From: Streptomyces albireticuli
GTDB lineage: Bacteria > Actinomycetota > Actinomycetes > Streptomycetales > Streptomycetaceae
Length of the DNA: 64,000 nt
Assembly (NCBI RefSeq): GCF_002192455.1
Contig: NZ_CP021744.1
Span: forward strand, 4,807,501 to 4,871,500
Direction: 5' to 3'
Shown here one piece after another: positions 4,820 through 53,299 of this stretch; within the stretch, counting starts at the first letter, position 1; each line of letters opens with the position of its first letter. A program made the translations under genes and the position numbers. Under the pieces are notes generated by a model that was not told where the DNA came from, made no database searches, and saw only the letters and a list, made by a program, of their open reading frames with translations.

Positions 4820-5012
4820 GGTCGGTGACTCCTTCTCGCTGGCCCGCTCGCCGGTGCGGCGACCGGGCGGATCGCCAGCCATCGTGTCACGGTGCGGGAC
4901 GCCGCCGGAGGGGCCCGTACCGCCCCTCCCGGAAGCCCGCGGACGGGCTCGTAAGGGGGAGGAACCCGGAGGCGACCTTCAATAGTGGGAGCGCGGCGGG
5001 CAGACTGGACGG

Positions 5013-26507: not shown

Positions 26508-27704
26508 ATGAAGGTCGTCTCTCGACCGGAACCCGCCCCGGTGCGCCGGCGGGTCGTCCGGTCCTGGTTCCCCGCCCCGACGCGCCGGGAGGCGGCCCTC
26601 GCGGCCGTCCTCTACCTCGCGGTCGCCTCCGTCGGCTTCGCGACGCTGCTGCTGGTCAACCACCACCTCGGGCGCGGGGTGGGGGAACTGCTGCACCGCT
26701 GGGACAGCGGCAACTACCTGCACATCGCGGGGCACGGCTATCCGCGCGAGATCGTCTACCGCGACGACGGCGCACCGGCCTTCAGCAGGCTCGCCTTCTT
26801 CCCGCTCGTACCGGGGCTGATAAGGGGCGTGCACCTCCTCACCACGCTCCCGGTGGCGTACGCCGGGGTGGTGGTCTCCTGGTGCGCCGCCGCGGTGGCC
26901 GCCTCCGGCGTGTACGTGCTCGTGCGCGCCATAGGCGGGCGCCCTGGCGCCGGCTACGCGTGCGTGGCGCTGTGGGCCTGCTCGCCGTACGCCTTCGCGC
27001 TGTGGGTGCCGTACTCGGAGGCGGTCTTCAGTGCCGCCCTGGTGTGGGCGATGGTCGCCCTGCTGGCGCGGCGCTGGCTGGCCGCCGCCGCGCTGTGCGT
27101 GGTGGCGGGCGCCGTCCGGCCGACAGCCTCGGTGCTCATCGGCACGGTCGTCCTGGCGGCCGGCTGGGCGGTGGTGCGGCGCCGGGACGGCTGGCGGCCG
27201 TGGGCCGCGCTGGCCCTGGCGCCGCTCGGGCTGCTGGGGAGCTGGCTCTTCCTGGGCGGCAAGGTGGGCCGGGTGGACGGCTGGTTCGAGGCCGAGCGCG
27301 CCTGGGGGCAGTCGTTCGACTTCGGCCGGGGCACGGCGCGCTTCCTGAGGGACGTCCTGCTCTACGACCGCGCCGGCCGGGTCTCCGACGTGCGCGGCGC
27401 CGTGGTGCTCGGCCTGGTGGTGCTGACGGCCGTCGCGGTGCTCGCCCTGGCGCTGGACCGGAGCGTGCCGTGGCCACTGGTGGTGCTGCTCGCGGGGGCG
27501 TGGCTGCTGATGGTCGGCACGCCGGGCTCGCCCTTCTCCAAGCCACGCTTCATGCTGCCGTTCCTGCCGGTTCCGCTGCTGTTGGCGGCCCGTCCGCTCG
27601 CGCGTGCTCGGCTAGGGGTGCGGGTGTGTCTCTACGGTGGAGGTGCGGTGGTCTCGGGGTGGTACGCGGCGGGGTTGCTCGTGTTGTTCGAGGGGTCGCC
27701 GTGA
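26508..27704 (+). CDS. PIG-V-like membrane mannosyltransferase
   Basis: A 398-residue polytopic GT-C type glycosyltransferase with about ten hydrophobic segments. The extracytoplasmic loop after the first transmembrane helix has HRWDSGNYLHIAGHGY (about 64-79), matching the WD-containing signature of PIG-V-type mannosyltransferases, which use polyprenol-phosphate mannose as donor. WVPYSEAVFSAALVW and PFSKPRFMLPFLP are further family-like loops. It likely transfers a sugar at the outer face of the membrane; the acceptor is unknown. ATG 26508 follows AAGAGAGACGG. The 3' end overlaps the convergent GtrA-like gene by 73 bp. It heads the surface-glycan locus. Confidence 0.85.
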   Translation: MKVVSRPEPAPVRRRVVRSWFPAPTRREAALAAVLYLAVASVGFATLLLVNHHLGRGVGELLHRWDSGNYLHIAGHGYPREIVYRDDGAPAFSRLAFFPLVPGLIRGVHLLTTLPVAYAGVVVSWCAAAVAASGVYVLVRAIGGRPGAGYACVALWACSPYAFALWVPYSEAVFSAALVWAMVALLARRWLAAAALCVVAGAVRPTASVLIGTVVLAAGWAVVRRRDGWRPWAALALAPLGLLGSWLFLGGKVGRVDGWFEAERAWGQSFDFGRGTARFLRDVLLYDRAGRVSDVRGAVVLGLVVLTAVAVLALALDRSVPWPLVVLLAGAWLLMVGTPGSPFSKPRFMLPFLPVPLLLAARPLARARLGVRVCLYGGGAVVSGWYAAGLLVLFEGSP

Positions 27705-28348
27705 TGCGAGGGGTCGTCGGGACCGGGCTGGGCGTGCCGCGGCAGCGCTCTGAACACCCAGGCGCGGTAGGACCAGAAGCGGAACAGCGTGGCGGCCCCG
27801 ATGCCCAGGAACTTGAACAGGTTGTTCTGGAACGGGGTGTCCCAGCCGAACCCGTAGGTGGCGATGTAGAGGACGCCGTTCTCGATCACCAGGCCGACGG
27901 CGCTGAAGGCGGCGAAGAGCGCGATCTCCCGGCTGCGGTGGCTCTTGTCGCGGTCCCGGTAGGCGAAGTGGCGCAGTCCCAGGTAGTTGAAGGCGATGGC
28001 GACCAGCGTCGCGATCACGCTGCACCGGACGACCGGCAGGTCCGTGGCCGTGCGGCAGATGTTGAAGACCGCGAGATTGACGAAGATGCCCAGGCCGCCG
28101 ACGGTGCCGAACTTCGCGAACTCCCTCCCGAGGGCCAGCAGCCGCGCCGGGCCGGAGGCGGGTGGGCCGTCCGGGGCCGTCCGCGTCGGCGGGGCTGTCG
28201 GTGTCGCGGGGTCCCCCGGCTCTTCGGGGGTCCCGGGTGTCCTCGGTCGCAGGGGTCGCAAGGGCCTCTCCCGATACGTTCGCCACGCAAAGCAGGCATT
28301 TTCCAGCAGAGAATAGATTGTAGTGTAAATTGCCGCGAAAACTGACAA
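27632..28348 (-). CDS. GtrA-family membrane protein
   Basis: GtrA-like proteins have four transmembrane helices and are thought to flip polyprenol-phosphate-linked sugars or assist their transfer. The core here (about 78-205) starts EFAKFGTVGGLGIFVNLAVF and has the typical RHFAYRDR and FWSYRAWVF segments. The 75-residue N-terminal part is Pro/Thr-rich low complexity and the C-terminus is His/Pro/Asn-rich. The start is uncertain: the frame opens with TTG 28348, without a Shine-Dalgarno and inside an AT-rich island with -10-like TACAAT and TACACT on this strand. A shorter protein from a downstream start is possible. It pairs logically with the polyprenol-phosphate-mannose synthase-like gene at 29793. 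Confidence 0.8.
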   Translation of the reverse strand: MSVFAAIYTTIYSLLENACFAWRTYRERPLRPLRPRTPGTPEEPGDPATPTAPPTRTAPDGPPASGPARLLALGREFAKFGTVGGLGIFVNLAVFNICRTATDLPVVRCSVIATLVAIAFNYLGLRHFAYRDRDKSHRSREIALFAAFSAVGLVIENGVLYIATYGFGWDTPFQNNLFKFLGIGAATLFRFWSYRAWVFRALPRHAQPGPDDPSHHGDPSNNTSNPAAYHPETTAPPP

Positions 28349-28372
28349 AACGGTACAGCGGTAATGGTGACG
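28290..28372. promoter_or_regulatory. AT-rich divergent promoter island
   Basis: An unusually AT-rich stretch in a GC-rich region, between the leftward GtrA-like gene and the rightward nucleotidyltransferase. On the minus strand TACAAT and TACACT occur close together as -10-like hexamers; on the plus strand TAGATT and TAAATT do. It therefore probably holds promoters for both directions, even though the annotated GtrA frame extends into it. Confidence 0.5.
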
Positions 28373-28485
28373 GTACCCGTGGCGGTGCCTTCGGAGAAGC
28401 CGACGGCGGGGCCGGTGGGAGCGCCGGTCGCGGTGCCGGTGGCAGGGCCCGCGGTGACAGCGACGACAACGGCGAGGACAGTGGC

Positions 28486-29565
28486 ATGACAGAGGCGGTT
28501 CTGCTCGTCGGCGGCAAGGGGACCCGGCTCCAGCCGCTCACCCTCACCACGCCGAAGCCGATGGTCCCGGCCGCCGGGGTGCCCTTCCTCGCCCACCAGC
28601 TGGCCCGCGCCAGAGCCGCCGGCGTCCGCCACGTCGTGCTGGCCACCTCCTACCTCGCCGAGGTCTTCGAGCCCTACTTCGGCGACGGCTCCGCCCACGG
28701 CCTGCGCCTGACCTACGTCACCGAGGACGTACCGCTCGGCACCGGCGGCGCCGTCCGCGCCGCGGCGGACGCCCTCACCTCCGGCCCGGCCGACCCCGTG
28801 CTCGTCCTCAACGGCGACATCCTCACAGGGCTCGACCTCAGGGGTCTGCTGGGCCGCCACGAGCGGGCGGCGGCCGACGTCACCCTGCACCTCACCAGGG
28901 CGGAGGACCCCCGGGCCTTCGGCCTGGTGCCCACCGGGCCCGGCGGGCGGGTGCTGGCCTTCACCGAGAAGCCGCGGCGCCCCGAGGAGCTCGTCACCGA
29001 CCAGGTCAACGCGGGCGTCTACGTCTTCCGGCGCGAGGTCATGGACACCATCCCCACGGGCCGCCCGGTCTCCCTGGAGCGCGAGACCTTCCCCGGGCTG
29101 CTGGCCGCCGGCGCCCTGCTGCACGGCGTCGTCGACACCTCGTACTGGCTCGACCTCGGCCGCCCCGCCTCCTTCGTGCGGGCCTCGGCCGACCTCGTGC
29201 GGGGCGTCGTCCGGTCGCCCGCGGTCCCCGGCGAGCCGGGCGAGTTCCTGCTGCTGCCCGGCGCCCGTGTGGAGGCCGGGGCGCGGCTCGGCGGCGGCAC
29301 GGTCGTCGGCGCCGGGGCCCATGTCGCGGCGGGCGCAGAGATCGACGGGTCCGTCGTGCTGGACGGCGCCCGGGTCGGGGAGGGGGCAAGGATCCACGCC
29401 AGTATGGTCGGCCGGCAGGCCAGGGTGGGCCCGCGGACCGTGCTGGACGGCGCGGTGATCGGCGACCACGCCGGGGTCGGCGCGGACAACGAACTCCGCG
29501 ACGGCGCGCGCGTCTGGTGCGGCACGACCATCCCCGACGCCGCCATCCGCTTCTCCGCCGTCTGA
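28486..29565 (+). CDS. sugar-1-phosphate nucleotidyltransferase (GDP-mannose pyrophosphorylase-like)
   Basis: Makes an NDP-sugar from a sugar-1-phosphate and an NTP. The 359-residue protein has the N-terminal pyrophosphorylase loop LVGGKGTRLQPLT (about 6-18) with TPKPMVPAAG, then VLNGDIL carrying the metal-binding Asp and FTEKPRRPEE. The C-terminal third (about 240-355) is a left-handed beta-helix with hexapeptide-like repeats (GARVEAGARLGGGTVVGAGA). The architecture fits mannose-1-phosphate guanylyltransferases, which would supply GDP-mannose to the synthase encoded next, but glucose or another sugar cannot be excluded. GAGGA lies about 8 nt before ATG 28486. The 120-bp Gly-coding stretch before it is open in frame from a TTG at 28330. 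Confidence 0.85.
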   Translation: MTEAVLLVGGKGTRLQPLTLTTPKPMVPAAGVPFLAHQLARARAAGVRHVVLATSYLAEVFEPYFGDGSAHGLRLTYVTEDVPLGTGGAVRAAADALTSGPADPVLVLNGDILTGLDLRGLLGRHERAAADVTLHLTRAEDPRAFGLVPTGPGGRVLAFTEKPRRPEELVTDQVNAGVYVFRREVMDTIPTGRPVSLERETFPGLLAAGALLHGVVDTSYWLDLGRPASFVRASADLVRGVVRSPAVPGEPGEFLLLPGARVEAGARLGGGTVVGAGAHVAAGAEIDGSVVLDGARVGEGARIHASMVGRQARVGPRTVLDGAVIGDHAGVGADNELRDGARVWCGTTIPDAAIRFSAV

Positions 29566-29602
29566 CGGGCCGGCATGGCGAACGGCCCGCCTTACGGACA
29601 AC

Positions 29603-29677
29603 GCTCACCTTGACGAACCAGCTCACCTTGACGAACCAGCTCACCGTGACGAACGCAGCTCACCTTGACGAACGACC
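29603..29677 (+). repeat. four direct repeats, 18-19 bp period
   Basis: GCTCACCTTGACGAACCA occurs exactly at 29603-29620 and 29621-29638. Near-copies follow at 29639-29657 (one substitution plus an extra base) and 29658-29675. Each unit contains TTGACG or GTGACG. The array is non-coding, lies between the nucleotidyltransferase and the polyprenol-phosphate-mannose-synthase-like gene, and precedes an 11-bp inverted repeat. Confidence 0.9.
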
Positions 29678-29702
29678 GTAAGGGCGACGGCCGCCCTTAC
29701 GG
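29676..29702 (+). promoter_or_regulatory. 11-bp inverted repeat after the direct-repeat array
   Basis: A perfect inverted repeat: CCGTAAGGGCG (29676-29686), loop ACGGC, CGCCCTTACGG (29692-29702). CTTACGG also occurs at 29591-29597 before the array. It may be a terminator for the upstream gene without a T tract, or an operator. It lies 91 bp before the next start codon. Confidence 0.55.
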
Positions 29703-29792
29703 GTGACGCCCCCACCGCACCCGCGGCACCGTCCCCGTACGGAACCGCCCGATCCCGGGAAACCCACCGGCCACACCGACAAGGACAGGCAC

Positions 29793-30599
29793 ATGAGCGC
29801 ACATCACAGCCCCGCCGGCCCGCCGCTCCCGGAGGAGTGGGGACGCACCGCGACCACCGTGGTCATGCCCACGTACAACGAGGCGGACAACCTCCCGGCG
29901 ATGGCCGAGGCGCTCATGTCCCTGCCGCTGGAGGGGCTGCGGCTGCTCGTCGTCGACGACAACAGCCCGGACGGCACCGGCAAGATCGCCGAGGACCTCG
30001 CCGAGCGGTACAACACCCCGGACCGCACCCGCGTGGCCGTCCTGCACCGCACCGCCAAGGACGGCCTCGGCCGCGCCTACGCCGCCGGGATGACCCGCGC
30101 CGTCGACGAAGGCGCCGCGTACGTCCTCCAGATGGACGCCGACGGCAGCCACCCGGCGGGCAAGGTCGCCGAGTTGCTCGGCGTCGCCCTCGCCACCGGC
30201 GCGGACGTCGTCGTCGGCAGCCGCTACGTGCCCGGCGGCACCCTGTCCGACGCCTGGAGCGCCCACCGCAGACTGCTCTCCCGCTGGGCCAACGCCTACG
30301 CCAGCACGATCCTGGGCACCCGCGTCCGTGACATCACCAGCGGCTTCAACCTCTGGAGCGCGGACGCGCTGCGCGCCATCGACCTCCACACCGTCGGCAG
30401 CGCGGGCTACAGCTTCCAGGTCGAGATGAAGTACCGCGCGCTGCGCGCGGGCCAGAGCGTCCTGGAGGTGCCGATCCACTTCGAGGACCGGACCGTCGGC
30501 GAGTCGAAGATGAACCTGGCCGTCCAGCTCGAATCCGTGGCCATGCCATGGCGGCTGCGCGCGAGGGCCGCCCGTGCTTCCGGCCACCGCGCCCGCTGA
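29793..30599 (+). CDS. polyprenol-phosphate mannose synthase-like GT2
   Basis: A 268-residue GT2 of the dolichol/polyprenol-phosphate mannose synthase type. It would transfer a sugar, probably mannose, from an NDP-sugar to polyprenol phosphate on the cytoplasmic side. Motifs: [19 protein letters not shown] (about 22-40), [11 protein letters not shown] (about 53-63), the metal-binding DADGSHP (about 113-119), GSRYVPGG, and the acceptor-loop segment DITSGFNLW. Ends without transmembrane helices, like the catalytic half of mycobacterial Ppm1. Its lipid-linked product would feed the GT-C enzymes encoded around it. ATG 29793 follows AAGGACAGG. The next gene overlaps its 3' end by 26 bp. Confidence 0.9.
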
Positions 30600-32351
30600 G
30601 CGCGTGACCCCGACCGCCACCGGGGTCCCTCCGCCCGGCCCGCGCGCGCCGCGTGCCGCCGTCTCCGCCGCCGCCCTCCTGCCGGCCGTCCTCCTCCTGC
30701 TGATGGTCGTCCGGCTGCCGTGGTCCGGCGACCTGGGGATGCACGCGGCGGTCCTGGAGCGGCTGCGCGCCGACCTCTTCCACCCGGGCAACCCGCTGGT
30801 CGACGAGGACACCCCGAGCCCGTACCACTCGCCGTGGATGGTCCTGCTGGCGCTCCTCGCCTCGGCGACCGGCCTGGGGACGTTCTCCGTGCTGCGGCTG
30901 GCGGCGCTCGTCGACCTCGTCCTGCTCGTCTCCGGCGTCGCGGTGTTCGTGCGCACCTTCACTCGGGAGCGGGCGGCCGTCCCGCTGGCGCTGCTGTGCC
31001 TGCTCTGCCTGTACGGCGTGCGGCTGTTCGCGTGGAGCGGGTTCCCGGGGCTCACCTCGCTCTGCCTGGCCCTCGCCTACCCGAGCACGTTCGCCCTCGG
31101 GCTCGCCTTCCACCTGTGGGCACTGCTGCGCCGGGCCGTGGCCGGTGCCTGGCGGACGCCGGCCTTCCTGGGACTGGGGCTGCTGCTGGCCTGGGTGCTG
31201 CTGGCCCATCAGTTCACCGGCGCGGTGGCCGTGCTCGGCGCCGTCGCGATGCTGCTGGGCGCCCGGCCGTGGCCCGCCCGCGCGGTGTGGCTGCGGGCCG
31301 GTGCCGGGGCGGCCGTCGCCCTGGTGGTGCCCGCCTGCTGGCCGTACTACTCCTTCTACGCGCTGCTCGGTACGGGTGGTCTGGACGCCATCCACCGGCC
31401 GCTCTACGCCCATCTCACGGCGAGGTTCTGCCTGGTGCTGCTCGGGGCCGCCGCCCTCGCCGCGCGTGCGTCGCGGGACCGCCGCGATCCGCTGGTGCTG
31501 TTCTTCGGGCTGGGGCTCGTCGTGTTCGCGGCCGGCGGGGTGACCGGCCATCAGGCGTGGGGACGGATCCTGCCGGCCGTCCTGGTGCCCGCCCAGGTGG
31601 CCCTTGCGCTGGAGACGGCCCGGCGGGCCGCCCTCGTCCCGCTGACGGCCGCCGCCCTGCTCGTCGGCGCGTGGACGCAGGCCGGGGTGCTGACGTACGT
31701 GCTGCGACCGGCCGCCGTGCCGCCCGTCCTGCGGCAGGTGCGCGCGGTCGCGCTCTGGCCTTCGTTCGCCTGGGCGGCGCGCGAGGTGCCCAAGGGGCAG
31801 ACGGTGCTGACCGACGACTACTACGCGCTGCGGATGCTGCCCGCCTACGGCGCGTACACCGTCGCGCCCGCCTACCCCGATGTCTTCCTCCGCGACGAAG
31901 GGCGCCGGTGGGAGGCGACCCACCGCTACTTCGCCGCGGCGACCTCCCGGGCCGAACGGCTCGGCATCCTCAAGGAGTACGGCGTGCGGTGGGTGGTGCA
32001 GAGGAACGGCGGTCCGGGGCTGGCGCCGGGCGATCCGGTGCTGCGGAGGGTGGCCTCGGGGCCGCGGGGGCTGGTGTTGTGGGAGGTGGTGTCGGGGCGG
32101 TCTTCCGGGGTGCGGCGCGTGCCGGGAGCACGGGGAGCACGGGGGGTGTCAGGGGTTCCGGGGGTGCCGAGCCGGTCGGGGCCTTGGGGTTCTCCGGTGC
32201 TGCTGGTGGCTTCGGGGGCTCTGGGTTCTCCGGTGCTGCCGGTGACTTCCGGGCCTCCGGGTCCTCCGGGGCTGCCGTTGGCTCCTGGGCTTCCGGGTCC
32301 TCCGAGGTCCTCGCGGCCTCCGCCGACCGTGCCCCGGCGGGTGTCCGGTGA
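30574..32351 (+). CDS. polytopic GT-C-like membrane protein, frameshifted near 3' end
   Basis: About ten hydrophobic segments over the first 390 residues, then a soluble C-terminal domain (ending near [13 protein letters not shown]), the general layout of lipid-linked glycosyltransferases; no catalytic family signature was recognised with certainty. The first frame is clear to about 32100 but then runs, unrelated, through the next gene to 33696. Shifting by one base gives a tail that stops at 32351, overlapping the next start as GTGA. A missing base in the G6 run at 32141-32146 would restore this. The tail contains three 36-bp repeats. GTG 30574 has GAGGG upstream; GTG 30604 is an alternative. 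Confidence 0.72.
32187..32303 (+). repeat. 36-bp tandem repeat in glycosyltransferase tail
   Basis: Three consecutive units (32187-32222, 32223-32258, 32259-32294), each beginning GGGTTCTCCGGTGCTGC or a close variant, plus a 9-bp partial copy. In the frame ending at 32351 they encode a [12 protein letters not shown]-like unit. Confidence 0.9.
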
Positions 32352-33742
32352 GCGCGCCCGACGCCGTCGGCCGCTGGCTGCGCGGGCGGGCACCGTGGCC
32401 GGTGCTGGTGGCGGCGCTGGTGGTGTGCGCGCTGGACGTGGCCCGGGTGATGGAGAGCCCGCGCGTGGGCATGGACAACGCCGTCGTGGTGCGCGCGGCC
32501 GAGACCCTTCTCGACGGCGGCTCGCCGTACGCGGACAAACGGTTCCTCTATCTGCCGGGCGCCGTGTTCGCGGCGGTCCCCCAGACGGCGGTCGCCGAGC
32601 GGGTGCTCTTCTACGCCGTCCCCGTGGGCACCGCGCTGCTCGTCCTGGTGGGCGTGGCCCTGGCCCTGCGGATCTTCGACGTCCGCGCGGACAGCCGGCT
32701 GGCGGTGGCCGTCATCGCCGGGCTCGGGGTGTTCCTGCCGTTCCACGGACTCGTCCACCTCGGCAACTGGACGGTCGTCTCCGCCGTCGCCTTCCCCGCC
32801 GCGCTGCTGCTGGCCCGGCGGGAGCGCTGGTGCGCGGCGGCGGCCGTGATCGGGGCGGCGATAGCGCTCAAGCCGATGCTCGTGCCCCTCCTGCTGCTGT
32901 TCGTCCTCGCCCGGCGGTGGCGGGCGCTGGCGGTGGCCGTGGGCGTGCCCGCCGTGGTGTCGACGCTGTCGGCCCTGGCCATGCCGCGGCCGGGGCTGTT
33001 CTTCACCCGGACGCTGCCGTTCCTGCTGCACGGTCAGGACGCCTACGCACGCCCGTTCGACGCCTCGTGGCCGGCCGTGCTGCCCCGGCTCGGGGTGCCG
33101 CAGCCCGTGGCCTTCGGGCTGGCGGTGCTGGCCGCGGGGGCGGTGCTGCTCTTCGCCCGGGCCCGGTGGCGGGCCGGGGGGAACGCCGAGCTGCGGCTGG
33201 TGGAGTGCGCGTCACTGCTGATGCTGGCGGCGTTCCTGGTGTCCCGGCCGTCGTTCCTCCACTACATGCTGGTGGTGCTGCCGTCGCTGGTGGCGTCGGT
33301 GGTGGTGCGTGGTGCCGCGGCGCGGTCGGTGTGGTTCTGGCTGGCGCTGCTGCCGCAGTTCATCGGGGTGCACTGGCCGTACCTGGAGGGCTCGCGGCGG
33401 CACGCCTTCAAGGACATCGTCATGATCACCGGGGTCGCCGGGGCGCTGTGCCTGCACACGTGGCGGGGGAGGGGCGGACTTCCCGGAGAGGTGGCCGACG
33501 AGGGGCCGGACCGGGCCGGCGAGGAGCCCGGCCGGGTCGGCGAGGGCTCGGGCGGGGTCGGCGAGGAATCCGGCCGGGCGGCCCGGGAGGGCGGCACCGG
33601 GGCCGTCGACGGGACCGCGGGTGGGGCCGCGGAGAGGGCCGACGCCGCGACCGCCGACGAGGTGACTGTCAGTGGTCACGTCTACTCTCTTCGTAGTGAC
33701 CGCGATTCGACGAATCGCGCCGATCGCTCGGAAATGAGGTGA
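32348..33742 (+). CDS. DUF2029/GT87-type membrane glycosyltransferase
   Basis: A 464-residue polytopic protein of the GT87 (DUF2029) type. The N-terminal loop has the usual acidic-residue segment after the first helix (MDNAVVVRAAETLLDGGSPY), then KRFLYLPGAVFA, and the central LKPMLVPLLLLFVLARRW matches the family's conserved Lys-Pro. Actinobacterial members use polyprenol-phosphate mannose to extend glycans outside the membrane. About 90 C-terminal residues form an acidic, repeat-bearing, probably disordered tail (VGEGSGGVGEESGR). GTG 32348 overlaps the previous stop as GTGA, indicating translational coupling. The next gene follows 3 bp after its stop. Confidence 0.85.
   Translation: MSAPDAVGRWLRGRAPWPVLVAALVVCALDVARVMESPRVGMDNAVVVRAAETLLDGGSPYADKRFLYLPGAVFAAVPQTAVAERVLFYAVPVGTALLVLVGVALALRIFDVRADSRLAVAVIAGLGVFLPFHGLVHLGNWTVVSAVAFPAALLLARRERWCAAAAVIGAAIALKPMLVPLLLLFVLARRWRALAVAVGVPAVVSTLSALAMPRPGLFFTRTLPFLLHGQDAYARPFDASWPAVLPRLGVPQPVAFGLAVLAAGAVLLFARARWRAGGNAELRLVECASLLMLAAFLVSRPSFLHYMLVVLPSLVASVVVRGAAARSVWFWLALLPQFIGVHWPYLEGSRRHAFKDIVMITGVAGALCLHTWRGRGGLPGEVADEGPDRAGEEPGRVGEGSGGVGEESGRAAREGGTGAVDGTAGGAAERADAATADEVTVSGHVYSLRSDRDSTNRADRSEMR
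33701..33719. promoter_or_regulatory. 19-nt perfect palindrome upstream of GT2/TagF fusion
   Basis: CGCGATTCG, centre A, CGAATCGCG. It lies inside the last codons of the GT87-like gene and 27 bp before the next start. A GTGAC/GTCAC dyad (33662-33679) is also close. Both are relatively AT-rich and look like an operator or promoter region placed inside the upstream gene. Confidence 0.45.
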
Positions 33743-33745
33743 CTT

Positions 33746-36696
33746 GTGCCCACCGCACGCCCTGTCCCCGGCCCGGACGTCACCGTGGTCGTGATCGTCT
33801 ACAACGACGCGGAGCGGCTGCCGCGCGCCGTGCGATCCGTGCTCGGCCAGTCGCTGCGCAACCTCGAAGTGATCATCGTCGACGACTGCTCGACCGACGC
33901 CACCCGCGCCACCGCCCGCCGGCTGGCCGCGTCCGACCGCCGGGTGCGCTGTCTGCGCCTGCCCGTCAACAGCGGCGGCTGCGGCGCCCCGCGCAACGCC
34001 GGCATCGAGGCCGCGGCCGCGCCCCATGTGATGTTCCTGGACAGCGACGACGAACTGCCGTACCACGCCTGCAAGTCGCTGCTGCTCGCCGCCGAGGAGA
34101 CCGGCGCCGACCTCGTCACCGGCGAGGTCACCCGGAATTTCGAGGAGACCGGCACCACCGGCCTGTGGTACCCGGAGCTGTTCGGCGACGTCCGGGTCGT
34201 CGACGGCATCCGCGCCGCCCCCGAGTACTTCCTCGACCACCTCTCCACCAACAAGCTCTACCGCGCCGACTTCCTCGCCCGTCACCGGCTGCGCTTCCCC
34301 GAGGGCGTCCACTACGAGGACCAGCTGTTCTCCGCCCAGGCCTTCACCCTCGCCCGCACCTTCGCGGTCGTCCCCTGGCCCGTCTACACCTGGTGGCTCG
34401 CCGCCGACCCGGACCGGCTGTCCATCTCCTCCAGCCGGCACCGCATCCGCAACGCCATGGACCGCGTCCTCGCCGCCCGGCTCATCGACGCCTTCCTGGA
34501 GGAGAGCGGCAACGCCGACCTCCGCCCCGCGAAGGACGAGAAGTTCCTCCGCCACGACCTCCGCCTCTACCTCGGCGACCTGCCCTTCCGCGAGCTGTGG
34601 TGGATCACGGAGTTCGCCGCCGTCGTCACCCCCTACCTGCGCACCCTCGCCCCCGAGGCGCTCGCCGCGATGCCGCGCGAGCAGCGCGTCTGTCAGTACT
34701 TGCTGGAAGCGGGCCGGTTCGCCGAGGCCGCCGAGTGCGCCCGCACCCTCGACCGCCCGCACCTCGCCCCCCGCCACGTCGTCCGGGAAGGCGGGCGCGT
34801 GTACTGGGGGCGGACACCCCCCGAGGGCCCCGAGGCCGCCGCCGGCCTCGACGTCACCGACTGGCGCCTGGACGAACAGCCCTTCACCACCGGTCCGTTG
34901 CGCCACGAGGTGGCCCGCATCGACCCAGCGGGCCCCCTGCTGCGCGTCCTGCTGCACACCTACGACCCCGCCCGGCTGCTCGCGGGCACCGAGCCGGTCA
35001 CCGCCGAACTGCGCATCGCCACCACGGCCGAGCCCCTCACCGTCCCCTTCCGCTACGACCCGCCCCACCTCGGCCCGGACGGCACCCCCGGCCCCCGCAC
35101 CGCCGAGATCGACCTCGACCCGCGCCGCATCCCCCTCGGCGTCACGGGTTTCCGGGGCCGCCGCCACCCCGTCGTCGTGCTCGAACGGATGGGCCTCACC
35201 CGCACCGACCCCCTCCTCGCCCCCGCCACCCTCCCCCGCTGCGCACCCGCCTCCCGCAGTACGGCCCGCTCGGCGCCCACAGCGTGCGGATGGGCTGCGA
35301 GGGCCACGGCGCCGGCCGGCTCGAACTCACCTGGGAGCGCACCGGCGCCCTCGGCCGCGCCGAGACCGCCGCCCCCCGCCTCCGCCCGGCCCGCCGCCGG
35401 GTCCAGCGGCTCACCCGCCGCGTCACCGGCCCCCGCGCCAAGGCCCTCACGTACCACGAGCTCCAGCGCCTTCCCGTGGACGACACCCTCGTCGTCTTCG
35501 AGGCCCTGGAAGGCCGCGGCTACGCCGACAGCCCCCGCGCCCTCCACGAGGAGATCCTGCGGCGCGGCCTCCCGCTGCGCGCCGTGTGGTCCTGCGCCGG
35601 CCCCACCTCCTCCTACCCGGAGGGCGTGCCCCTCGTCCGGCGCGGCAGCTGGGAGTACGTCCGCACGCTCGCCCGCGCCCGCTACTGGATCGACTCGCAC
35701 GGCTTCCCCACGCTCTACGGCAAACGGCCCGGCACCCGCTATCTCCAGACCTGGCACGGACAGGCCCTCAAACACATGGGCTTCGACGTCCCCGAACTCC
35801 GCCTCGCCGGCCCCGAGCGGCAGCGCCGGCACCGTGAGGCCGTCGGCCGCTGGGACGCCCTCATCGCCCCCAGCGAGGAGTTCGAGCGCACCTTCGTCCG
35901 GGCCAACGGCTACACCGGCAGGCTGCTGCGCACCGGCCTGCCTCGCAACGACGCCCTCGTCCGCTGGAACGACCCCGAGCAGCGCGACCGCGCCGCCACC
36001 GCCCGCGCGCGCCTCCAGGTCCCCGACGGCCGCAAGGTGCTCCTCTACGCCCCGACGTTCCGCGACGGCGCCCGCGGCACCGGTGAGTCCGTCCGGGTGG
36101 ACCTCGCGGAGCTGGTGCGCCGCACCGGCGAGGAGTGGACGGTCGTCGTCCGCCCGCACTACTACGAACGGTTCGCCGTGCCCCGCGAGCTGGGCCACGC
36201 CGTGCGCGACGGACGCCAGTTCCCCGACCTCAACGACCTGCTGCTCGCCTCCGACGCGCTGCTCACGGACTACTCGTCCGTGATGTTCGACTACGCCAAC
36301 CTCGGCCGTCCCATCCTGCTCTGGGCCGACGACTACGCCCACTACCGCTCCACCGCCCGCGGCCTGTACTACGACCTGCCCGAGATCGCCCCCGGGCCCA
36401 TGCTCACCACGGTCGGCGAACTGGCCGCGGGGCTGGCCGACCTGGGCGCGCTGCGGGAGGAGTGGGCGGGGGCGTACGGAAGGTTCCAGGCGCGGTTCAA
36501 CCCGTACGAGACGGGGCGGTCGAGCGGGGCCGTGGTCGACCTGTTCTTCGAGGAGCTCGTCTCCCCGGGCGGGGCGGTGGACGAGGAAGCGACCCCGGAT
36601 CCGCCGGCCGACGAGCGGGCGGCCACACCTGTCGGCTCGTCCGCCGGACCGGCTTCCGGACCACTTCTCGGGCCGTCCGCCGGGGGGAGGGGCTGA
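33746..36696 (+). CDS. bifunctional GT2 / CDP-glycerol glycerophosphotransferase, frameshifted
   Basis: The N-terminal part is a GT2 (VIVDDCSTD, VNSGGCGAPRNAG, FLDSDDE) with a long accessory region. The C-terminal part is a TagF-like polymerase: DSHGFPTLYGKRPG, YLQTWHGQALKHMG, VLLYAPTFRDG, VVVRPHYYE, LLTDYSSVMFDYANL and RFNPYETG. Such fusions build poly(glycerol-phosphate)-type teichoic polymers with added sugars. The two parts lie in different frames: the first holds to about 35230 and the second continues from there to 36696. One base missing in the C5 run 35233-35237 explains it. The product would be about 983 residues. GTG 33746 has GAGGTG upstream. Confidence 0.85.
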
Positions 36697-36697
36697 C

Positions 36698-37909
36698 GTG
36701 GGCACTCGCGACCTCTTCCTCGTCGGCATCGACGTGGACTCCATGGGCGGTTCGCAGCGCGTGCTGCACACCCTCGCCCAGGGCTTCGCGGAGCGCGGCC
36801 ACCGCGTCGATCTGATCGGCATCCGCCCCAGCCCCGAGCCCCACACGTTCGTCGCCGACCCCGGCTACCGGCACACCACCCTCTATGCCGAGCCGCCGGC
36901 CCCGCCGTGGCGGGCCGAGTCCTTCGCCGAGCGGCTGAACCCGGCCCGGGTGCGGGCCGCGCGCTCCGAGCGGCGGGAGCGGGACCTGGCCCGTGAGCGG
37001 CTGGCCCGGCGGTTCGCCGCCGCGCGGGAGGGCCTTGTCCTCATCGGCTCGCCCTGGGCGGCGGTCTGGCTGGAGGCGGTGGACCGGCCGCATCTCAGGG
37101 GCATCGGGCAGTACCACGAGTCCTTCCTCCAGGCGTGCCGCTCGGAGAACCTCCGGCTGATCCTCCGGCACTACCCGGAGCTGGAGAAGTCGGTGTTCCT
37201 GAGCGAGCCCGACGCGGCGGAGTTCCGCCGCATGCGGCTGCCGAACGCGACGGTGATGCCCAATCCGCTGCCGTTCACGCCCGGTGAGCCCGCGCCGCTG
37301 GACACCCGGCGGGTGGGCGCGGTCGGCCGGCTGGAGGAGGTCAAGCGCCTGGACCGGCTTCTCGAAGCGTTCGCCGGGGCGACCGGGGCGACCGGGGCGA
37401 CCGGGGGGACCGGGGGGACCGGGGGCGGTGAGTCCGGTGGTTCCCCGGGGCCGGCCGGTGGCGACGGCTGGGAGCTGCACTTCTTCGGTGACGGTCCGCT
37501 GGAGCCCGAGCTCCGGGCGCGGGCCGAGCGGCTCGGCGTCGCCGGCCGGGTCCGCTTCCGCGGCAGCGTGCGGGACATGGCCGCCGCCTACCGGGAGCTG
37601 TCCGTCGTCGCCCTCACCAGCGAGCGCGAGGGCCGGCCCATGGCCCTCGCGGAGGCCTCCGCCTCGGGTGTGCCGTGCGTGAGCTTCGACCTGTCGGGCG
37701 GCGTCCGGGAGCTCGTCGTGGACGGCCGCACGGGCACGCTCGTACCGCCCGGCGACACGGCCGCGTTCACCGGGGCCCTGCGCGCGCTGATGACGGACGG
37801 CGCCCTGCGGGAGCGCTACGGGCGGGCCGCGCGTGAGCATGTGGCGCCGCTGCGGCTGCCGGCGGTGCTGGACCGGTGGGAGGCCCTGTTCGAGGAGATC
37901 GACCGGTAG
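36698..37909 (+). CDS. GT4-family glycosyltransferase
   Basis: A 403-residue GT-B enzyme. The N-terminal domain starts LVGIDVDSMGGSQRVLHTLA with the acceptor-side Gly loop. The C-terminal donor domain has AVGRLEEVKRLDRLLEAFA, FGDGPLEPELRA and the E-x7-E-like region SEREGRPMALAEASASGVP. A glycine-rich insertion (residues about 228-250) made of five 9-bp repeats interrupts the donor domain where other members have a short loop. It probably modifies the teichoic-type polymer made by the preceding fusion, since the two genes are separated by a single base and GGGGGGAGG precedes its GTG start. Confidence 0.88.
   Translation: MGTRDLFLVGIDVDSMGGSQRVLHTLAQGFAERGHRVDLIGIRPSPEPHTFVADPGYRHTTLYAEPPAPPWRAESFAERLNPARVRAARSERRERDLARERLARRFAAAREGLVLIGSPWAAVWLEAVDRPHLRGIGQYHESFLQACRSENLRLILRHYPELEKSVFLSEPDAAEFRRMRLPNATVMPNPLPFTPGEPAPLDTRRVGAVGRLEEVKRLDRLLEAFAGATGATGATGGTGGTGGGESGGSPGPAGGDGWELHFFGDGPLEPELRARAERLGVAGRVRFRGSVRDMAAAYRELSVVALTSEREGRPMALAEASASGVPCVSFDLSGGVRELVVDGRTGTLVPPGDTAAFTGALRALMTDGALRERYGRAAREHVAPLRLPAVLDRWEALFEEIDR
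37381..37425 (+). repeat. 9-bp tandem repeat, five copies, in GT4 gene
   Basis: GACCGGGGC twice, then GACCGGGGG three times, with no break. It encodes alternating Gly-Ala-Thr/Gly-Gly-Thr and expands the loop before the beta-strand WELHFFGDG. In-frame change in copy number would not break the gene. Confidence 0.9.
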
Positions 37910-38163
37910 CGCGGCCGTCGCGGGACCGGGGTCAGGGGGAGCGGATGCGAGGGGGCGTCAGGGTGGGAGCGGAAACAGGAACGGGAGCGCGAGCGGCGCG
38001 GCGGACAGGGGCGCGGGAGCGGTTCCGGGCCGCCCGGACCGCCGGTGGTAGCTGTCCGCCGTGGGCGTGGCCGCTACGGGCCCTGTGCGGACGGATCGCC
38101 GCGCGCGTCCCCGCGGTCCTCGCCGCGTCGCTCTGCGCCTCGGTGCCCAGGGGCGCCGCCGTG
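37910..38163. other. 254-bp convergent intergenic region
   Basis: Lies between the GT4 gene and the leftward GT2 gene. It is extremely GC-rich and holds imperfect GC hairpins but no clear terminator with a T tract. A 142-codon minus-strand frame overlapping it (37958-38386) has no recognisable features and is not supported. Confidence 0.4.
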
Positions 38164-39942
38164 CTACCGGGGCGCGCCGCCCGGTCGCCTCACCGTCCGG
38201 CGCAGCCGGCGCAGGGCTATGCCGGCGGCGGAGCGCATGCCCGGCGCCAGGCGGAGGGTGAGGGAGCCCGCCGCCGTGGCGTGCGGCCGGACCAGCAGCA
38301 GGCCGAAGCGCGGGCTCGGCACGGCGGTGCGGCGCAGGGCGCCCGTGGCGCGTACGGAGGTGCGGAAGGAGTCGCCGGACGCGCACCGCACCTGGACGCG
38401 GATGTCCCAGGACTGCGGGTCGGCGCCGGAGCCGTCACGGCGGCCGAGCGCGGCGAGCGCGCCCAGGCCCAGGACGGCCCTCGCCGTCCACGAGGCCTCC
38501 CCGGCGGTCCCTTCCGGGGTTTCTTCGGCGGCCCCTTCGGCGGTCCCTTCAGGGATCTCTTCGGTAGTCTCTTCGGCAGTCTTTTCGGTGGTCAGGGGTA
38601 TGTTCCGCCGCAGCGTGGCCGAGCCGTCCCGGCGACGGAGGGTGAGGTCGACGGTGCGCGGCGGGTCGGCGGTCAGCCGCCCGTAGAGGTCGTGCACGCG
38701 CAACCGCAGTTCGGCGCGGGGGCCGCGGCAGGGGAACGCCGCCGCGCCCAGCTCCCCGTCGACGGCCACCGGGAGATGGGCGGTGGGTACGGCCGCCGGG
38801 CCGGTGAGGCCGTCCAAGGCGGCGCCGGGGAGGTCCGGCGCCCAGACCGGGGCGCCGTCCGCCGTCGCGTACGGCGGCAGCAGCCGCGGCGGGCGGGCGG
38901 CGAGCTGGGCCAGGCGGTCCAGGTCGCGCGGGGCGTCGGCGGCCAGCACGGCGCGGGCGATCCAGCGGGCCGGCGGCCGCGCGGCCCGCAGTTCCGCCTC
39001 CTCGTACGTGCCGAGGTGGTCGCGGGTCACCCGCCACCACTCCGCCCGGTAGCCGGGCCCCCGCGCCGGCAGTTCGCGGACGTACATGCGCAGGTCGTGG
39101 TCGAGGAACTTCACCCGGGCGGCGCGGGCGAGCGGCTCGCTGCCCGCCTCGCGGAAGACCTCCACGCTCCGCCGGTGGGCCCGCACGCGCGCCTGCCAGT
39201 TGGCGACGCGCTCGCGGTCCAGGGAGATCGAGGGGGCGGCCGCGTCGCGCCGCACGTGCCAGAGATAGACCGTGTCCGGGACGGTCGCCACGCGTGGCAG
39301 GGCCGCCAGCACCCGGGCCGTGAAGACGAAGTCCTCGTAGATGAAGGGCCCTTCGGGAAAGGTGATGCCGTGCTCGGCGAGGAAGGCGCGCGCGTACAAC
39401 TTGTTGACGCAGAGCGTGTCGTGGAGGAGCGCCGGCCGGTGCTCGGGGGAGCGGTGGACGGCGGCCCGCCGGTAGAGGCCGGGCTGCCAGCGGGTGTCGC
39501 GGCCGCTCGGGAGCTCGCGGCGGACGCACAGGCCGGCCGCCACAGGCGCGTCGTACCGCAGGGCGGCGCGCAGGAGGGCCGCCGCCGCGCCCTCGGGAAG
39601 CGTGTCGTCGCTGTCCAGGAACATCACGTACGGCGCGGTGGCGACCCGCAGGCCGTCGTTGCGCGGCGCGCCGCAGCCCCCGCTGTTGACGGTGCGGTGG
39701 ATCACGCGCAGACGGGGTTCGCGGGCGGCCAGCTCGTCCAGGACCGGGCCGGTGCGGTCGGTGGAGGCGTCGTCGACGGCGACGACCTCGGCGACGGCCG
39801 GCCCCTGGGCGAGGGCGGAGCGTACGGCGTCGGCGATGTGCGCGGCGTCGTCGAAGCCGATGACGACCACGCTGACCTGCCCGGGGGGCACGCCCGGTGC
39901 GGGCTCCGGGGTGCCGCTGTCACACGCCTCCATAACAGACAT
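38164..39942 (-). CDS. GT2 glycosyltransferase, paralogue of the GT2/TagF N-terminal half
   Basis: A 592-residue protein whose first 130 residues closely match the start of the fusion at 33746: VSVVVIGFDDAAHIADAVRS, VAVDDASTDRTG, the shared TVNSGGCGAPRND and VMFLDSDDTLPEG. The mid-region FIYEDFVFTARV also parallels it. It lacks the glycerophosphotransferase half. A Thr/Glu-rich stretch (about 453-487) comes from seven degenerate 12-bp repeats at 38503-38586. It likely adds a sugar to the same surface polymer. The start at 39942 has AGGTAG upstream in an AT-rich promoter-like stretch. It is the only gene of the glycan locus core reading leftward besides the GtrA-like gene. Confidence 0.85.
   Translation of the reverse strand: MSVMEACDSGTPEPAPGVPPGQVSVVVIGFDDAAHIADAVRSALAQGPAVAEVVAVDDASTDRTGPVLDELAAREPRLRVIHRTVNSGGCGAPRNDGLRVATAPYVMFLDSDDTLPEGAAAALLRAALRYDAPVAAGLCVRRELPSGRDTRWQPGLYRRAAVHRSPEHRPALLHDTLCVNKLYARAFLAEHGITFPEGPFIYEDFVFTARVLAALPRVATVPDTVYLWHVRRDAAAPSISLDRERVANWQARVRAHRRSVEVFREAGSEPLARAARVKFLDHDLRMYVRELPARGPGYRAEWWRVTRDHLGTYEEAELRAARPPARWIARAVLAADAPRDLDRLAQLAARPPRLLPPYATADGAPVWAPDLPGAALDGLTGPAAVPTAHLPVAVDGELGAAAFPCRGPRAELRLRVHDLYGRLTADPPRTVDLTLRRRDGSATLRRNIPLTTEKTAEETTEEIPEGTAEGAAEETPEGTAGEASWTARAVLGLGALAALGRRDGSGADPQSWDIRVQVRCASGDSFRTSVRATGALRRTAVPSPRFGLLLVRPHATAAGSLTLRLAPGMRSAAGIALRRLRRTVRRPGGAPR
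38503..38586 (-). repeat. degenerate 12-bp tandem repeat, seven copies
   Basis: Units such as GGCGGTCCCTTC and GGCAGTCTTTTC (plus-strand reading) repeat seven times. On the coding strand they give the Glu/Thr/Ala-rich segment of the GT2 gene, probably a flexible spacer. Confidence 0.8.
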
Positions 39943-39978
39943 TTCTACCTAAATAAGCACACTTGTAAGGTGCCCGCA

Positions 39979-40077
39979 GGCATTCGGAGCATCCGAGGCA
40001 TCAGAGGTATCCGCGGCGCCCGCGGCATCCGAGGCGCCCGAGCGGTCCGAGACATCCGAGACATCCGAGACGCCTGG
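39979..40077 (+). repeat. 9-bp tandem array, eleven copies, before GT39-like gene
   Basis: Eleven contiguous 9-bp units related to GGCATCCGA or GACATCCGA end 8 bp before the ATG of the GT39-like gene at 40085. The array is open in that gene's frame back to a stop at 39950 but has no start codon there. It replaces any normal ribosome binding site region and separates two divergent glycosyltransferase genes. Confidence 0.9.
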
Positions 40078-40084
40078 GGCAGTC

Positions 40085-41935
40085 ATGCGGCCCGTGGCTG
40101 AGCGTGGCGGGCGGCGGGCAGCGGCGGCCGTGCCCGCCGGCCCGGCCCGGACGGCGGCGCCGTCGCCCGCGCGCCGTCGCCCGCTGCCGGTACGGCCGCC
40201 CGTCCTCGCCGTCGCCGTCCCCGCCGCCGTCATGCTCGTCCTCGGGCTCTGGGGCCTGGACCGGGGCACGATGTGGCGGGACGAGAGCGCCACCTTCCAG
40301 ATCGCCCGTCGCTCCCTGCCCGAGATCGGGCACGCGCTCGGCACCGTCGACGCCGTCCACGGCCTCTACTACCTGCTGATGCACGCCGTACTCGCCGTCC
40401 GGGACGACGAACTCGCCCTGCGGCTGCCGTCCGTCGCCGCCTCCGCCGCCACGGCCGGGCTCGTCGGCGCGCTCGGCTGCCGCCTCGCCCGCCCGCGCGT
40501 GGGCCTGTGGGCCGGGCTGCTGTACGCCACCACGCCCTTCGTCAGCCACTACGCGCAGGAGGCCCGCTCGTACGCCCTGGTCGCCGCCGGGGCGGCGCTC
40601 GCCACCTGGCTGCTGGTCCGCGCCGTCGACCACGGCTCGGCGGGGCGCTGGGCGGGCTACGGCGCGGTGGCCGCCGGGACGGCGCTGCTCCACGAGTTCG
40701 CCGTCCTGCTCCTGGCCGCGCACGCCGTGACCCTGCTGGCCTCCCGGGTGCCGTGGCGCACATGGCGGGCCTGGGGGTGCGCGGCGGCCGGCTGCTGCCT
40801 CGCGCTGCTGCCGCTGGTGATCGTCTCGCGGGCGCAGAGCGCGCAGGTGTCGTGGATCAGGACGCCGGGGCGGCGGGAGGCGGAGGCGCTGCTGTACGCG
40901 TTCGCGGGGCCGGGGGAGCCGGTGCTGACGGTCACGCTGGTGCTGGCCGGGATCTCCCTGCTGGCACCCGTGGCGAGCCGGGGGAGGCGGGTTCTCTCCG
41001 CTGCCCGCTCCTTCTCGCGGCCGGGGGCGATCCCCCGGACCCCCGGGCCGCGCTCCGCGCCGCGCCCCCGGACGCCGGACGGGCCGGGTGCCGGCGCCCG
41101 CTCGATGTCGGCCTCCGCCGTCGGCGAGCTGGTCCTCCGCGTGTCCGGAGCACGATCCCGGGCGGCTTCCCGGCTCGTCCGGCCACTGAGGGCCGGAGTC
41201 CCCGTGTCGCTGAACGCCGTGGCGGTGCCGCTCGCGGTCGTGCCGCCCGTGCTCCTCTTCGGCGCCGCGCAGTTCCAGCCGCTGTTCCTCGACCGCTATC
41301 TGCTCTTCTGCCTCGCCGGGGTGCCGCTGCTCGCCGCCGCCGGGGCCGACCGCGTCCTCACCGCCCTCGCAGCCCTCAAGGCCCTCCCCGCCTTCCGGGC
41401 CCTCCCCGCCGTCCCGGCGCTGCGGCCGCCCGGGCCCCGGGTGGGGCGGCGGGCCGTGGCCGTGGCCGGGGCGCTGGCCGTCGTGGCGGCCTTCGCGTGC
41501 CAGCTCCCCGCGCAGCGGCGCGAGCGGCTGCCCGTCAGCCGAGGGGACGAGCTGGCCCCGGTCGCCGCCCTCGTCGGACGGCTGGCCGGGCCCGGTGACG
41601 CGGTGCTCTTCCTCCCCCTGCACGAGCGCCGCGTCGCCCTGGCCTACCCCCGGGACTTCACCGGCCTGCGCGACCTCACCCTCGCCCGGTCACCCGCCGC
41701 CTCCGGCACCCTCTTCGGCGAGGAGGTCACCGCCGGCGCGCTGCGCGACCGCCTGGCCGGGCTCCCCCGGGGCAGCCGCGTCTGGGTCGTGCAGGACACC
41801 GCGACCGTCGGCACCCGGTGGTTCCGCGCCCAGCGCGCCGAGTACGCCAAGACGACCGTGCTCGACGGGCTGTGCGAAGAAGGGGCCTCGGTCTTCGTGC
41901 GCGGGGGCGCGGTCACGCTCCGCATACGCCGGTGA
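40085..41935 (+). CDS. GT39/ArnT-like membrane glycosyltransferase
   Basis: A 616-residue polytopic protein with about ten hydrophobic segments. After the first helix comes the GT-C signature TMWRDESATFQIARRSLPE with the Asp-Glu pair. YYLLMHAVLAV and HYAQEARSYALVAA are further hallmarks of the ArnT/PMT-like group. The enzyme probably moves a sugar from a polyprenol-phosphate donor to an outer-face acceptor. A Pro/Arg-rich loop (about 310-350) and an Ala/Leu/Pro repeat (ALKALPAFRALPAVPAL, about 433-449) are unusual insertions. ATG 40085 lacks a clear Shine-Dalgarno because the 9-bp array lies right upstream. It converges with the ABC importer genes. Confidence 0.83.
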   Translation: MRPVAERGGRRAAAAVPAGPARTAAPSPARRRPLPVRPPVLAVAVPAAVMLVLGLWGLDRGTMWRDESATFQIARRSLPEIGHALGTVDAVHGLYYLLMHAVLAVRDDELALRLPSVAASAATAGLVGALGCRLARPRVGLWAGLLYATTPFVSHYAQEARSYALVAAGAALATWLLVRAVDHGSAGRWAGYGAVAAGTALLHEFAVLLLAAHAVTLLASRVPWRTWRAWGCAAAGCCLALLPLVIVSRAQSAQVSWIRTPGRREAEALLYAFAGPGEPVLTVTLVLAGISLLAPVASRGRRVLSAARSFSRPGAIPRTPGPRSAPRPRTPDGPGAGARSMSASAVGELVLRVSGARSRAASRLVRPLRAGVPVSLNAVAVPLAVVPPVLLFGAAQFQPLFLDRYLLFCLAGVPLLAAAGADRVLTALAALKALPAFRALPAVPALRPPGPRVGRRAVAVAGALAVVAAFACQLPAQRRERLPVSRGDELAPVAALVGRLAGPGDAVLFLPLHERRVALAYPRDFTGLRDLTLARSPAASGTLFGEEVTAGALRDRLAGLPRGSRVWVVQDTATVGTRWFRAQRAEYAKTTVLDGLCEEGASVFVRGGAVTLRIRR

Positions 41936-49461: not shown

Positions 49462-50022
49462 CGCCGTCAACGGTCCCTTCCTGCCCCTGGGTGCGCGACA
49501 GGGGCCGGGCGCGGCCTTCCCCCACCGGCACGGGCGCGTCGGCACGTACAGGTCACCACGTTCGCGCGGGGCAGTCCGCTCCCTCCCCACCGCATCCGTG
49601 CTTGCGAGCATCCTCGCACCTGCCACCGACGACGCGCCCGACGAGAGCCAATTCGTGATCTTGAACGACGATCGGAGTGTGCGAAAAACGCCGTTGGTGA
49701 GCGAGTGGGGTCGGCGCCGTCTCGTGATCGGTTCGCCGGACGCCTGTTTAGTGATGTCCCTTGACGTCTCTTGCCGTCTTTTTGCGGACGCCCGGACGTG
49801 CGCTCTTTCGCGCGCTCCTGCGCGTCGCGCCGCGGCCCGTAAGGTCGCCCGCACCGCCACACCACCCACTGGTGGCAACCAAGTGTCCGGAACGCGCGTC
49901 TTTACCCCGAGCCCCCCGGATTTCGTCAAGCCGGTGGTCCGTACGACGGCACTACAGTGGGCGCAAGGCCGGGCACGACAGAGGCCATCACAAGCAAGGA
50001 CCACGATCAGGGAGCGCATGAC
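49462..50022. promoter_or_regulatory. 561-bp divergent intergenic region between FHA-FtsK gene and pkaA
   Basis: No convincing gene; a 132-codon minus-strand frame here has only Arg-rich non-descript sequence. The central 49640-49790 is less GC-rich and is where promoters are expected. TACAGT at 49953-49958 is a -10-like hexamer for pkaA that would give a 60-nt leader, and TTGACG at 49762-49767 resembles a -35 element without a good partner. The length suggests regulation of both genes from one region. Confidence 0.35.
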
Positions 50023-51810: not shown

Positions 51811-51961
51811 CGGTGTGGATTTGTCGACACCTGACGGGTGTTTTCCGCCGCGGAAGTGGCGGTTGCTCCGGGATCGGTGTCCCTGACGCCTCCTCGGCCG
51901 CGTAGCTTGGTCGCCGGCGCCCCCGTCGGATGTCGGAGGACTGAAAGGAACCGGAACAGCC

Positions 51962-53299
<1,338 letters not shown>

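Follow-up and report, generated by a model that had tools for sequence, protein, structure and literature searches.

A candidate cell-wall glycopolymer locus combining a GT2/TagF-type polymerase with mannose-transfer genes in Streptomyces albireticuli

The stretch of Streptomyces albireticuli DNA considered here (64,000 nucleotides, contig positions 4,807,501-4,871,500, hereafter the window, in whose numbering coordinates are given) belongs to a genome of 8.14 Mb in a single contig and holds, between gdh and prfB, a locus of ten sugar-transfer genes (Table 1). An earlier reading made from the letters and open reading frames (ORFs) of the window, the sequence-only reading, had placed these ten genes under one theme, a surface-glycan locus built around polyprenol-phosphate sugar and a glycerophosphate polymerase, and profile scans bear out the ten genes, with two items altered by codon-position GC and translation. 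With moderate confidence we interpret the locus as one for a cell-wall glycopolymer, largely restricted to one clade and composed of a backbone module and a mannose decoration module. By a rough hydrophobicity count, each of the four GT-C candidates has 7-9 membrane spans and the GtrA-type protein 3, and there are none in the two halves of the polymerase, the GT4 protein and the products of 28330, 29703 and 38164 (genes are named by their positions). Published work is cited by its PMC identifier.

Table 1. Genes and repeat of the sugar-transfer locus, in window coordinates.
Feature	Position	Strand	Basis
Polytopic GT-C-like enzyme, motif RWDSGxY; possibly a mannosyltransferase	26508..27704	+	Weak matches, invariant motif
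GtrA/DPMS transmembrane protein, probable lipid-sugar flippase	27632..28348	-	PF04138 E 1.8e-21
Mannose-1-phosphate guanylyltransferase, start probably 28486	28330..29565	+	NF052502 527 bits, cut-off 440
GT2, polyprenol/dolichol-phosphate-mannose-synthase-like, start possibly 29793	29703..30599	+	PF00535 E 7e-28
GT-C-fold enzyme, homologous part of the 30574 ORF	30574..32098	+	AlphaFold model, VIA-align
36-base tandem repeat where the 30574 gene ends; coding frame switches nearby	32176..32304	.	TRF
GT87 enzyme, probably polyprenol-phosphate-mannose-dependent	32348..33742	+	PF09594 E 9.6e-18
TagF-type polymerase, N-terminal half: GT2 (GT-A) with DSD motif at residue 99	33746..35232	+	NCBIfam GT2 models, orthologues, motif
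PF04464 TagF-type phosphotransferase half, in a different frame in the window genome	35233..36696	+	PF04464 E 7.7e-89
GT4, polymerase companion	36698..37909	+	PF13692 E 1.8e-29
GT2, 39% identical to the GT2 half of the fusion	38164..39942	-	PF00535 E 1.8e-24
PMT_2-type GT-C enzyme	40085..41935	+	PF13231 E 1.7e-11

The center of the locus is a two-part polymerase that the sequence-only reading had described as a fusion of a GT2 glycosyltransferase with a CDP-glycerol phosphotransferase at 33746. Both halves stand, and in all 24 orthologue loci found outside the window they lie in one frame; what does not stand is a single open frame in the window itself, where the GT2 half is coded in the frame of ORF 33746 but the PF04464 half in the frame of ORF 33739. 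The GT2 half reaches E 1e-22 with its best NCBIfam model, every model being below its cut-off, and has orthologues at 58-95% in the 24 loci. The PF04464 half matches the TagF structure 3l7i, which we take to be that of Staphylococcus epidermidis, with E 3.7e-55, and retains both histidine positions (His 444 and His 584, counted on the 3l7i alignment), whose equivalents we presume to be catalytic. In the six-frame text of the orthologue loci TWHG is found in 24/24 and RPH[YP] in 20/24, and the Cps3D structure 8qoy matches the TagF part only (E 3.6e-24). The GT4 gene adjoins the fusion in every one of the 24, and both it and the minus-strand GT2 gene at 38164 match the families named for them by the sequence-only reading.

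Mannose is the likely activated sugar, as the sequence-only reading had proposed with polyprenol phosphate as its carrier: the theme recurs in the NF052502 match, a match to a dolichol-phosphate-mannose synthase (DPMS) structure, the GT87 gene and the PMT_2 gene. The sugar-nucleotide synthesis gene placed at 28486 is an in-frame later start within ORF 28330-29565, which NF052502 identifies more closely as a GDP-mannose-type pyrophosphorylase. It has a 71% identical paralogue at about 4.781 Mb on the contig, some 25 kb upstream of the window, and phosphomannomutase and phosphomannose isomerase domains sit between the two. ORF 29703-30599 likewise has the start given by the sequence-only reading, 29793, in frame; its best solved match is 5mlz, a dolichol monophosphate mannose synthase (E 1.7e-24), and together with PF00535 this match agrees with the earlier assignment and predicts a GT2 enzyme that forms a polyprenyl-phosphate sugar. 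The GtrA-type assignment at 27632 is confirmed by PF04138.

Three polytopic GT-C-like enzymes (26508, 32348 and 40085) and probably a fourth (30574) had been proposed, and the set is altered in its details. The gene at 32348 belongs by PF09594 to GT87, which we take to be the PimE-type family, and 40085 is of PMT_2 type. The 30574 protein is a GT-C enzyme by its modelled fold: by itself it matches no Pfam family (among 20 family members one match appears, at chance level), and its AlphaFold model (pLDDT 77) gives, in the top 25 VIA-align rows, Z 17-22 over 330-436 residues, with oligosaccharyltransferases, AftA, PMT and ArnT among them. W-x-G-D-L-G-x-H is invariant in 20 sequences of this family. 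Its ORF of 1040 residues runs into the GT87 gene in another frame, and on sequence criteria the gene extends no further than about residue 508: homology stops near that residue (window 32098), codon-position GC shifts at about 32.1 kb in the ORF's tail, and the orthologues terminate close to the next gene. The 36-base repeat stretch aligns to neither of the loci L073 (S. albireticuli) and L084 (S. eurocidicus). A gene at 30720-32351 was also considered and is rejected: codon-position GC speaks against it, as does the other frame, whose product has GT-C homology.

The fourth candidate, 26508, which we take to be PIG-V-like, gives weak signals only. The protein alone has no Pfam match; among 18 family members scanned the weak matches are to PIG-U (5), GT87 (4), PIG-V (4) and PMT_2 (2), and the top Foldseek rows for its model (pLDDT 66) are GT-C enzymes or complexes containing one, with E 0.033 or worse. 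R64, W65, D66, S67, G68 and Y70 are invariant across the 18 sequences. A sequence search of solved structures with two GT-C alignments found no match.

To examine conservation, GTDB representative genomes were scanned with the 30574 protein through six exact 8-residue patterns, a method in which misses are possible, and 22 loci were obtained. The nine-gene run of 26508, GtrA, NTP-transferase, GT2, GT-C, GT87, GT2 half, PF04464 half and GT4 occurs in this order in 16/22, which supports the single theme; genes scattered and unrelated in close relatives had been named by the sequence-only reading as the outcome that would speak against it, and the order is conserved. Two of the other six loci (L080, L093) are without 26508 only, two (L091, L094) run off the end of their contigs, and two (L088, L090) differ. 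In Streptantibioticus parmotrematis (L088), three mannose-module genes (60-73%) lie near a diverged fusion (41-42%) and a GT4 (36%); this set stands at a contig end in a different order and reads as a rearranged second version.

In the genomes scanned the locus is mainly that of one clade, the whorl-forming branch of Streptomyces, which bears whorled spore chains and includes industrial producers. Thirteen of the 22 loci come from twelve species whose epithets are in the NCBI list of former Streptoverticillium names; the remaining ones are from four isolates without a species name and from S. klenkii, S. triculaminicus, S. huiliensis, S. parmotrematis and S. griseoaurantiacus. In an even draw of 392 genus genomes, gdh was found in 390, and is at least 91% identical to that of the window in ten genomes (the window's included), the next value being 86%; the best gdh relative found is another S. 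albireticuli, L073, at 98-99%. All ten carry the PF04464 half of the fusion at 74% or more. The wider region shows the cluster in 8 of the nine other genomes, with 26508 lacking in one (G059), while of the ninth (G043) a stretch of 4.3 kb was read. In a gdh tree of 61 rows made by a quick method, 29 cluster rows split from 32 others with SH-aLRT 99; L088 and L091, having no gdh, were left out, L090 is counted with the 32, and several genomes appear in two rows. This tree is not independent of the locus because gdh is its neighbor, so support for the clade, into which 19/22 loci fall, comes from a single linked gene and from species names. An open-access literature search returned nothing on point for Streptoverticillium wall polymers, the older chemistry literature being mostly outside it.

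Reading more widely around the fusion, in 16 of the 24 orthologues outside the window and over stretches of 13 to 38 kb, we find the mannose module present in 8/16 regions, partial in 2 (G194, G337) and absent in 6 (G093, with a weak GtrA-like match only, G098, G353, G151, G023 and G296). G296 shows gdh, fusion, GT4, GT2 and an ABC gene in place but no mannose genes, and in G098 the fusion and GT4 lie beside histidine kinase and peptidase-type genes. From the other side, a PF04464 match accompanies the GT-C gene in 20/22 loci, the other two (L091, L094) ending at the GT-C gene. Since the GT-C gene comes with PF04464 in this way but 6/16 polymerase regions are without mannose genes, the polymerase pair would form the core, to which the mannose module adds an accessory decoration. 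The GT2 and PF04464 halves also stand in one frame beside a GT4 in 14/16 more distant loci at about 30-45% identity, two of these loci being from other genera (L005, L011) and two (L012, L013) without the arrangement. The fusion with its GT4 is thus a widespread pair (L003-L011, L039-L043).

In the model that we propose, the backbone module (33746-39942), consisting of the GT2/TagF-type fusion, the GT4 and the GT2 paralogue, would make a phosphodiester-linked polymer in the cytoplasm. The backbone would most likely be a sugar alternating with a phospho-unit, either polyol phosphate or sugar phosphate; the fusion of GT2 to TagF suggests a sugar inside the backbone, beyond decoration alone. The decoration module would comprise 26508-33742 together with 40085: 28330 would make GDP-mannose, 29703 would move the mannose onto polyprenol phosphate, GtrA (27632) would flip the lipid-linked mannose, and the GT-C enzymes 26508, 30574, 32348 and 40085 would place it on the exported polymer, the presumed acceptor. 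Export would be by an unlinked transporter, and LCP ligases would attach the polymer; PF03816, the LCP family, matches at nine places in the genome. The locus would thereby open to genetics a wall polymer that seems characteristic of the whorl-forming Streptomyces branch.

Several observations weigh against this interpretation. The fusion is frame-split in the very genome from which the locus was described, the substrate of a GT-C enzyme is unreadable from its fold, and the coupling of polymerase and mannose genes is not obligatory, as the incomplete regions above illustrate. TagD (TIGR01518) has no match in the genome, while the control search matches B. subtilis among 12/14, and TagA/WecG (PF03808) also has none, with control matches in 7/14; membership of the classical type I glycerol-phosphate wall teichoic acid pathway fails on both. 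Lastly, several other former Streptoverticillium names, mobaraense, orinoci and thioluteum among them, are missing from the set of 22, and no targeted check of their genomes was made.

The frame split bears on the first alternative, in which the polymer has been lost or switched off in the sequenced strain, the polymerase being truly frameshifted and the remaining genes remnants. We consider this possible though unlikely. Alignment with L073, L084 and L075 shows one uncompensated single-base gap near 35,235, within a run of C, and a second frame change occurs in the tail of 30574. Against loss of function, comparison with L073 shows no further uncompensated gap in the aligned coding parts (counted with the starts 28486 and 29793 assumed, and with the unaligned stretches of about 32.11-32.30 and 33.50-33.65 kb excluded), the draft locus L089 has breaks too, and single-base slips in C runs are a common sequencing error. 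The L089 draft, from Streptomyces lilacinus, has frame breaks in several genes of the locus, possibly assembly errors. Programmed frameshifting as the default is rejected because the orthologues read in one frame: besides the 24 loci already described, 18 of the 20 loci of the GT-C scan with both domains do so, the exceptions being L089 and L090, the latter not syntenic.

A second alternative separates the two modules, so that the mannose genes are neighbors of the polymer module but act elsewhere, in protein O-mannosylation or on a lipid glycan of lipomannan type. The six regions with a polymer module and no mannose genes speak for this, and S. coelicolor carries out protein O-mannosylation via polyprenol phosphate mannose (PMC5882110). 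However, the PF04464 match is held in 20/22 GT-C loci, the other two being cut contigs, and this is so even where the match has diverged, in L088 (Streptantibioticus, 42%) and L090 (S. griseoaurantiacus, 35%). Separate functions seem rather improbable next to a decoration module acting on the polymer.

The third alternative, which we also view as unlikely, concerns the backbone: the PF04464 half would transfer sugar 1-phosphate from a nucleotide sugar, and the product would belong, with the minor S. coelicolor wall polymer PDP, to the poly(diglycosyl 1-phosphate) class (PMC7831098, PMC11481543). The glycerol-phosphate backbone of the sequence-only reading is unproven. The TagD absence noted for the window extends to the whole genome, and the search elsewhere for a CDP-glycerol synthase was negative: PF01467 matches at only two places, which read as NadD and CoaD, so a TagD hidden among these proteins is ruled out. 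A TarI-type CDP-ribitol synthase besides IspD is likewise missing from the genome, in which PF01128 has one strong match, beside IspF and a CarD-like gene, and two weak ones that read as GlmU and a MobA-like protein (names from sequence reading). No known CDP-glycerol or CDP-ribitol synthase having been found, a sugar-phosphate backbone is a live rival.

The same pattern extends over the genus. Although the genus is rich in PF04464-type genes, the TagD cut-off is reached in 0/121 genus genomes, of which 82 have weaker matches and 39 none, yet PF04464-query matches occur in 18 of 20 listed genomes out of these 39; the PF04464-query scan scored the four best candidates per genome, so that a genome without a match may still carry the gene. 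A full-length TagD-like protein at about 54-70 bits is seen in many genus genomes, including some without a PF04464-query match. TagD as a marker of PF04464 across the genus was considered and discarded, as three genomes (G031, G058, G121) have low-scoring TagD-like matches without a PF04464-query match and many have PF04464 matches without a TagD match. The solved-structure matches speak against a sugar-phosphate donor, these being TagF, Cps3D and TarL, all users of CDP-polyols (CDP-glycerol for TagF, CDP-ribitol for TarL). Cps3D uses CDP-glycerol (PMC5974469), while related GT-A/TagF polymerases transfer glycerol phosphate or hexose phosphate (same source), so that TagF-like domains are able to move hexose phosphate. 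In the window genome, moreover, an LCP gene comes after a NadD gene, as has been described for the PDP ligase PdtA. On the opposite side, poly(glycerol phosphate) has been reported in S. hygroscopicus (PMC3196553) and poly(ribitol phosphate) in S. griseus (PMC13274773), and therefore some CDP-polyol synthase must exist there. Either Streptomyces have an unrecognised CDP-polyol synthase or some of their TagF-like proteins move sugar phosphates, and the lack of a recognised one makes the donor of a Streptomyces GT2/TagF protein a testable question.

A more specific proposal, which we offer as speculative and quite doubtful, is that the fusion is a single-chain poly(diglycosyl 1-phosphate) synthase using only nucleotide sugars. 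In the verticillate clade its backbone would then receive mannose outside the membrane, through a polyprenol-phosphate-mannose system devoted to this task, and the resulting surface polymer would mark the clade. If true, such a synthase would explain why Streptomyces TagF-like genes are kept without a recognised TagD.

Among described systems, several come close to a backbone with mannose decoration. The B. subtilis CsbB/GtcA/YfhO and Listeria GtlA/GtcA/GtlB systems have the same combination of a GT2 polyprenyl-phosphate glycosyltransferase, a GtrA protein and a GT-C enzyme that glycosylates a wall polymer from outside (PMC8035078), and all three parts are present here by sequence or fold, as GT2 (29703), GtrA and GT-C (GT87, PMT_2 and the 30574 fold). 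Unlike the three-component transmembrane glycosylation systems as described there, the locus has a mannose-type donor with its own GDP-mannose pyrophosphorylase and up to four different GT-C enzymes, and is coupled to a GT2/TagF polymerase. Cps1B and related GT-A/TagF-type capsule polymerases (PMC5974469) have a GT-A domain at the N terminus and behind it a TagF-like domain containing two histidines, a layout that the fusion would share as read in the orthologue loci, the window copy being split across frames. It differs from them in belonging to a Gram-positive locus, where a GT4 and a GT2 are its partners. Streptomyces wall glycans, whose loci vary between species, are receptors of umbrella-toxin lectins, and the teichuronic-acid-like utr loci are likewise species-variable wall-glycan loci for a glycan on a polyol-phosphate polymer (PMC13274773). 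The utr loci hold, in that account, aminotransferase, epimerase and other enzymes, and no such family was matched in the ten window genes.

A possible positional parallel in the genus is S. coelicolor SCO2997, a TagF homologue which, going by the title of Kleinschnitz 2011, reportedly has a role in sporulation; SCO2999 we take to be gdh. PF04464-query matches lie about 2-14 kb downstream of gdh in 8/11 genus genomes, besides the window's, in which gdh was found, the exceptions being G004, G008 (a short contig) and G012, and PF04464-type genes after gdh are thus shared with other Streptomyces. The counterpart by position in G002 is 43% identical to the window fusion in the PF04464 half. SCO2979 and SCO2998, together with the glycosyltransferases SCO2981-2983 and SCO2997, have been named for wall teichoic acid (PMC3937824). 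That clusters of this kind recur after gdh, a hot spot for them, might suggest that unrelated sugar genes came together here by chance; the order conserved across relatives contradicts this reading, which is highly improbable.

Short tandem repeats occur within or at the end of three glycosyltransferase genes (32176-32304, 37374-37424 and 38502-38593), and some of them coincide with alignment gaps relative to relatives. Elsewhere in the window, a 2165-residue ORF with FHA and FtsK/SpoIIIE domains (46045-52542, minus strand) lies between the sugar ABC genes and prfB, and the region 3593-4882 on the minus strand has a weak match to a glycerophosphoryl diester phosphodiesterase membrane domain.

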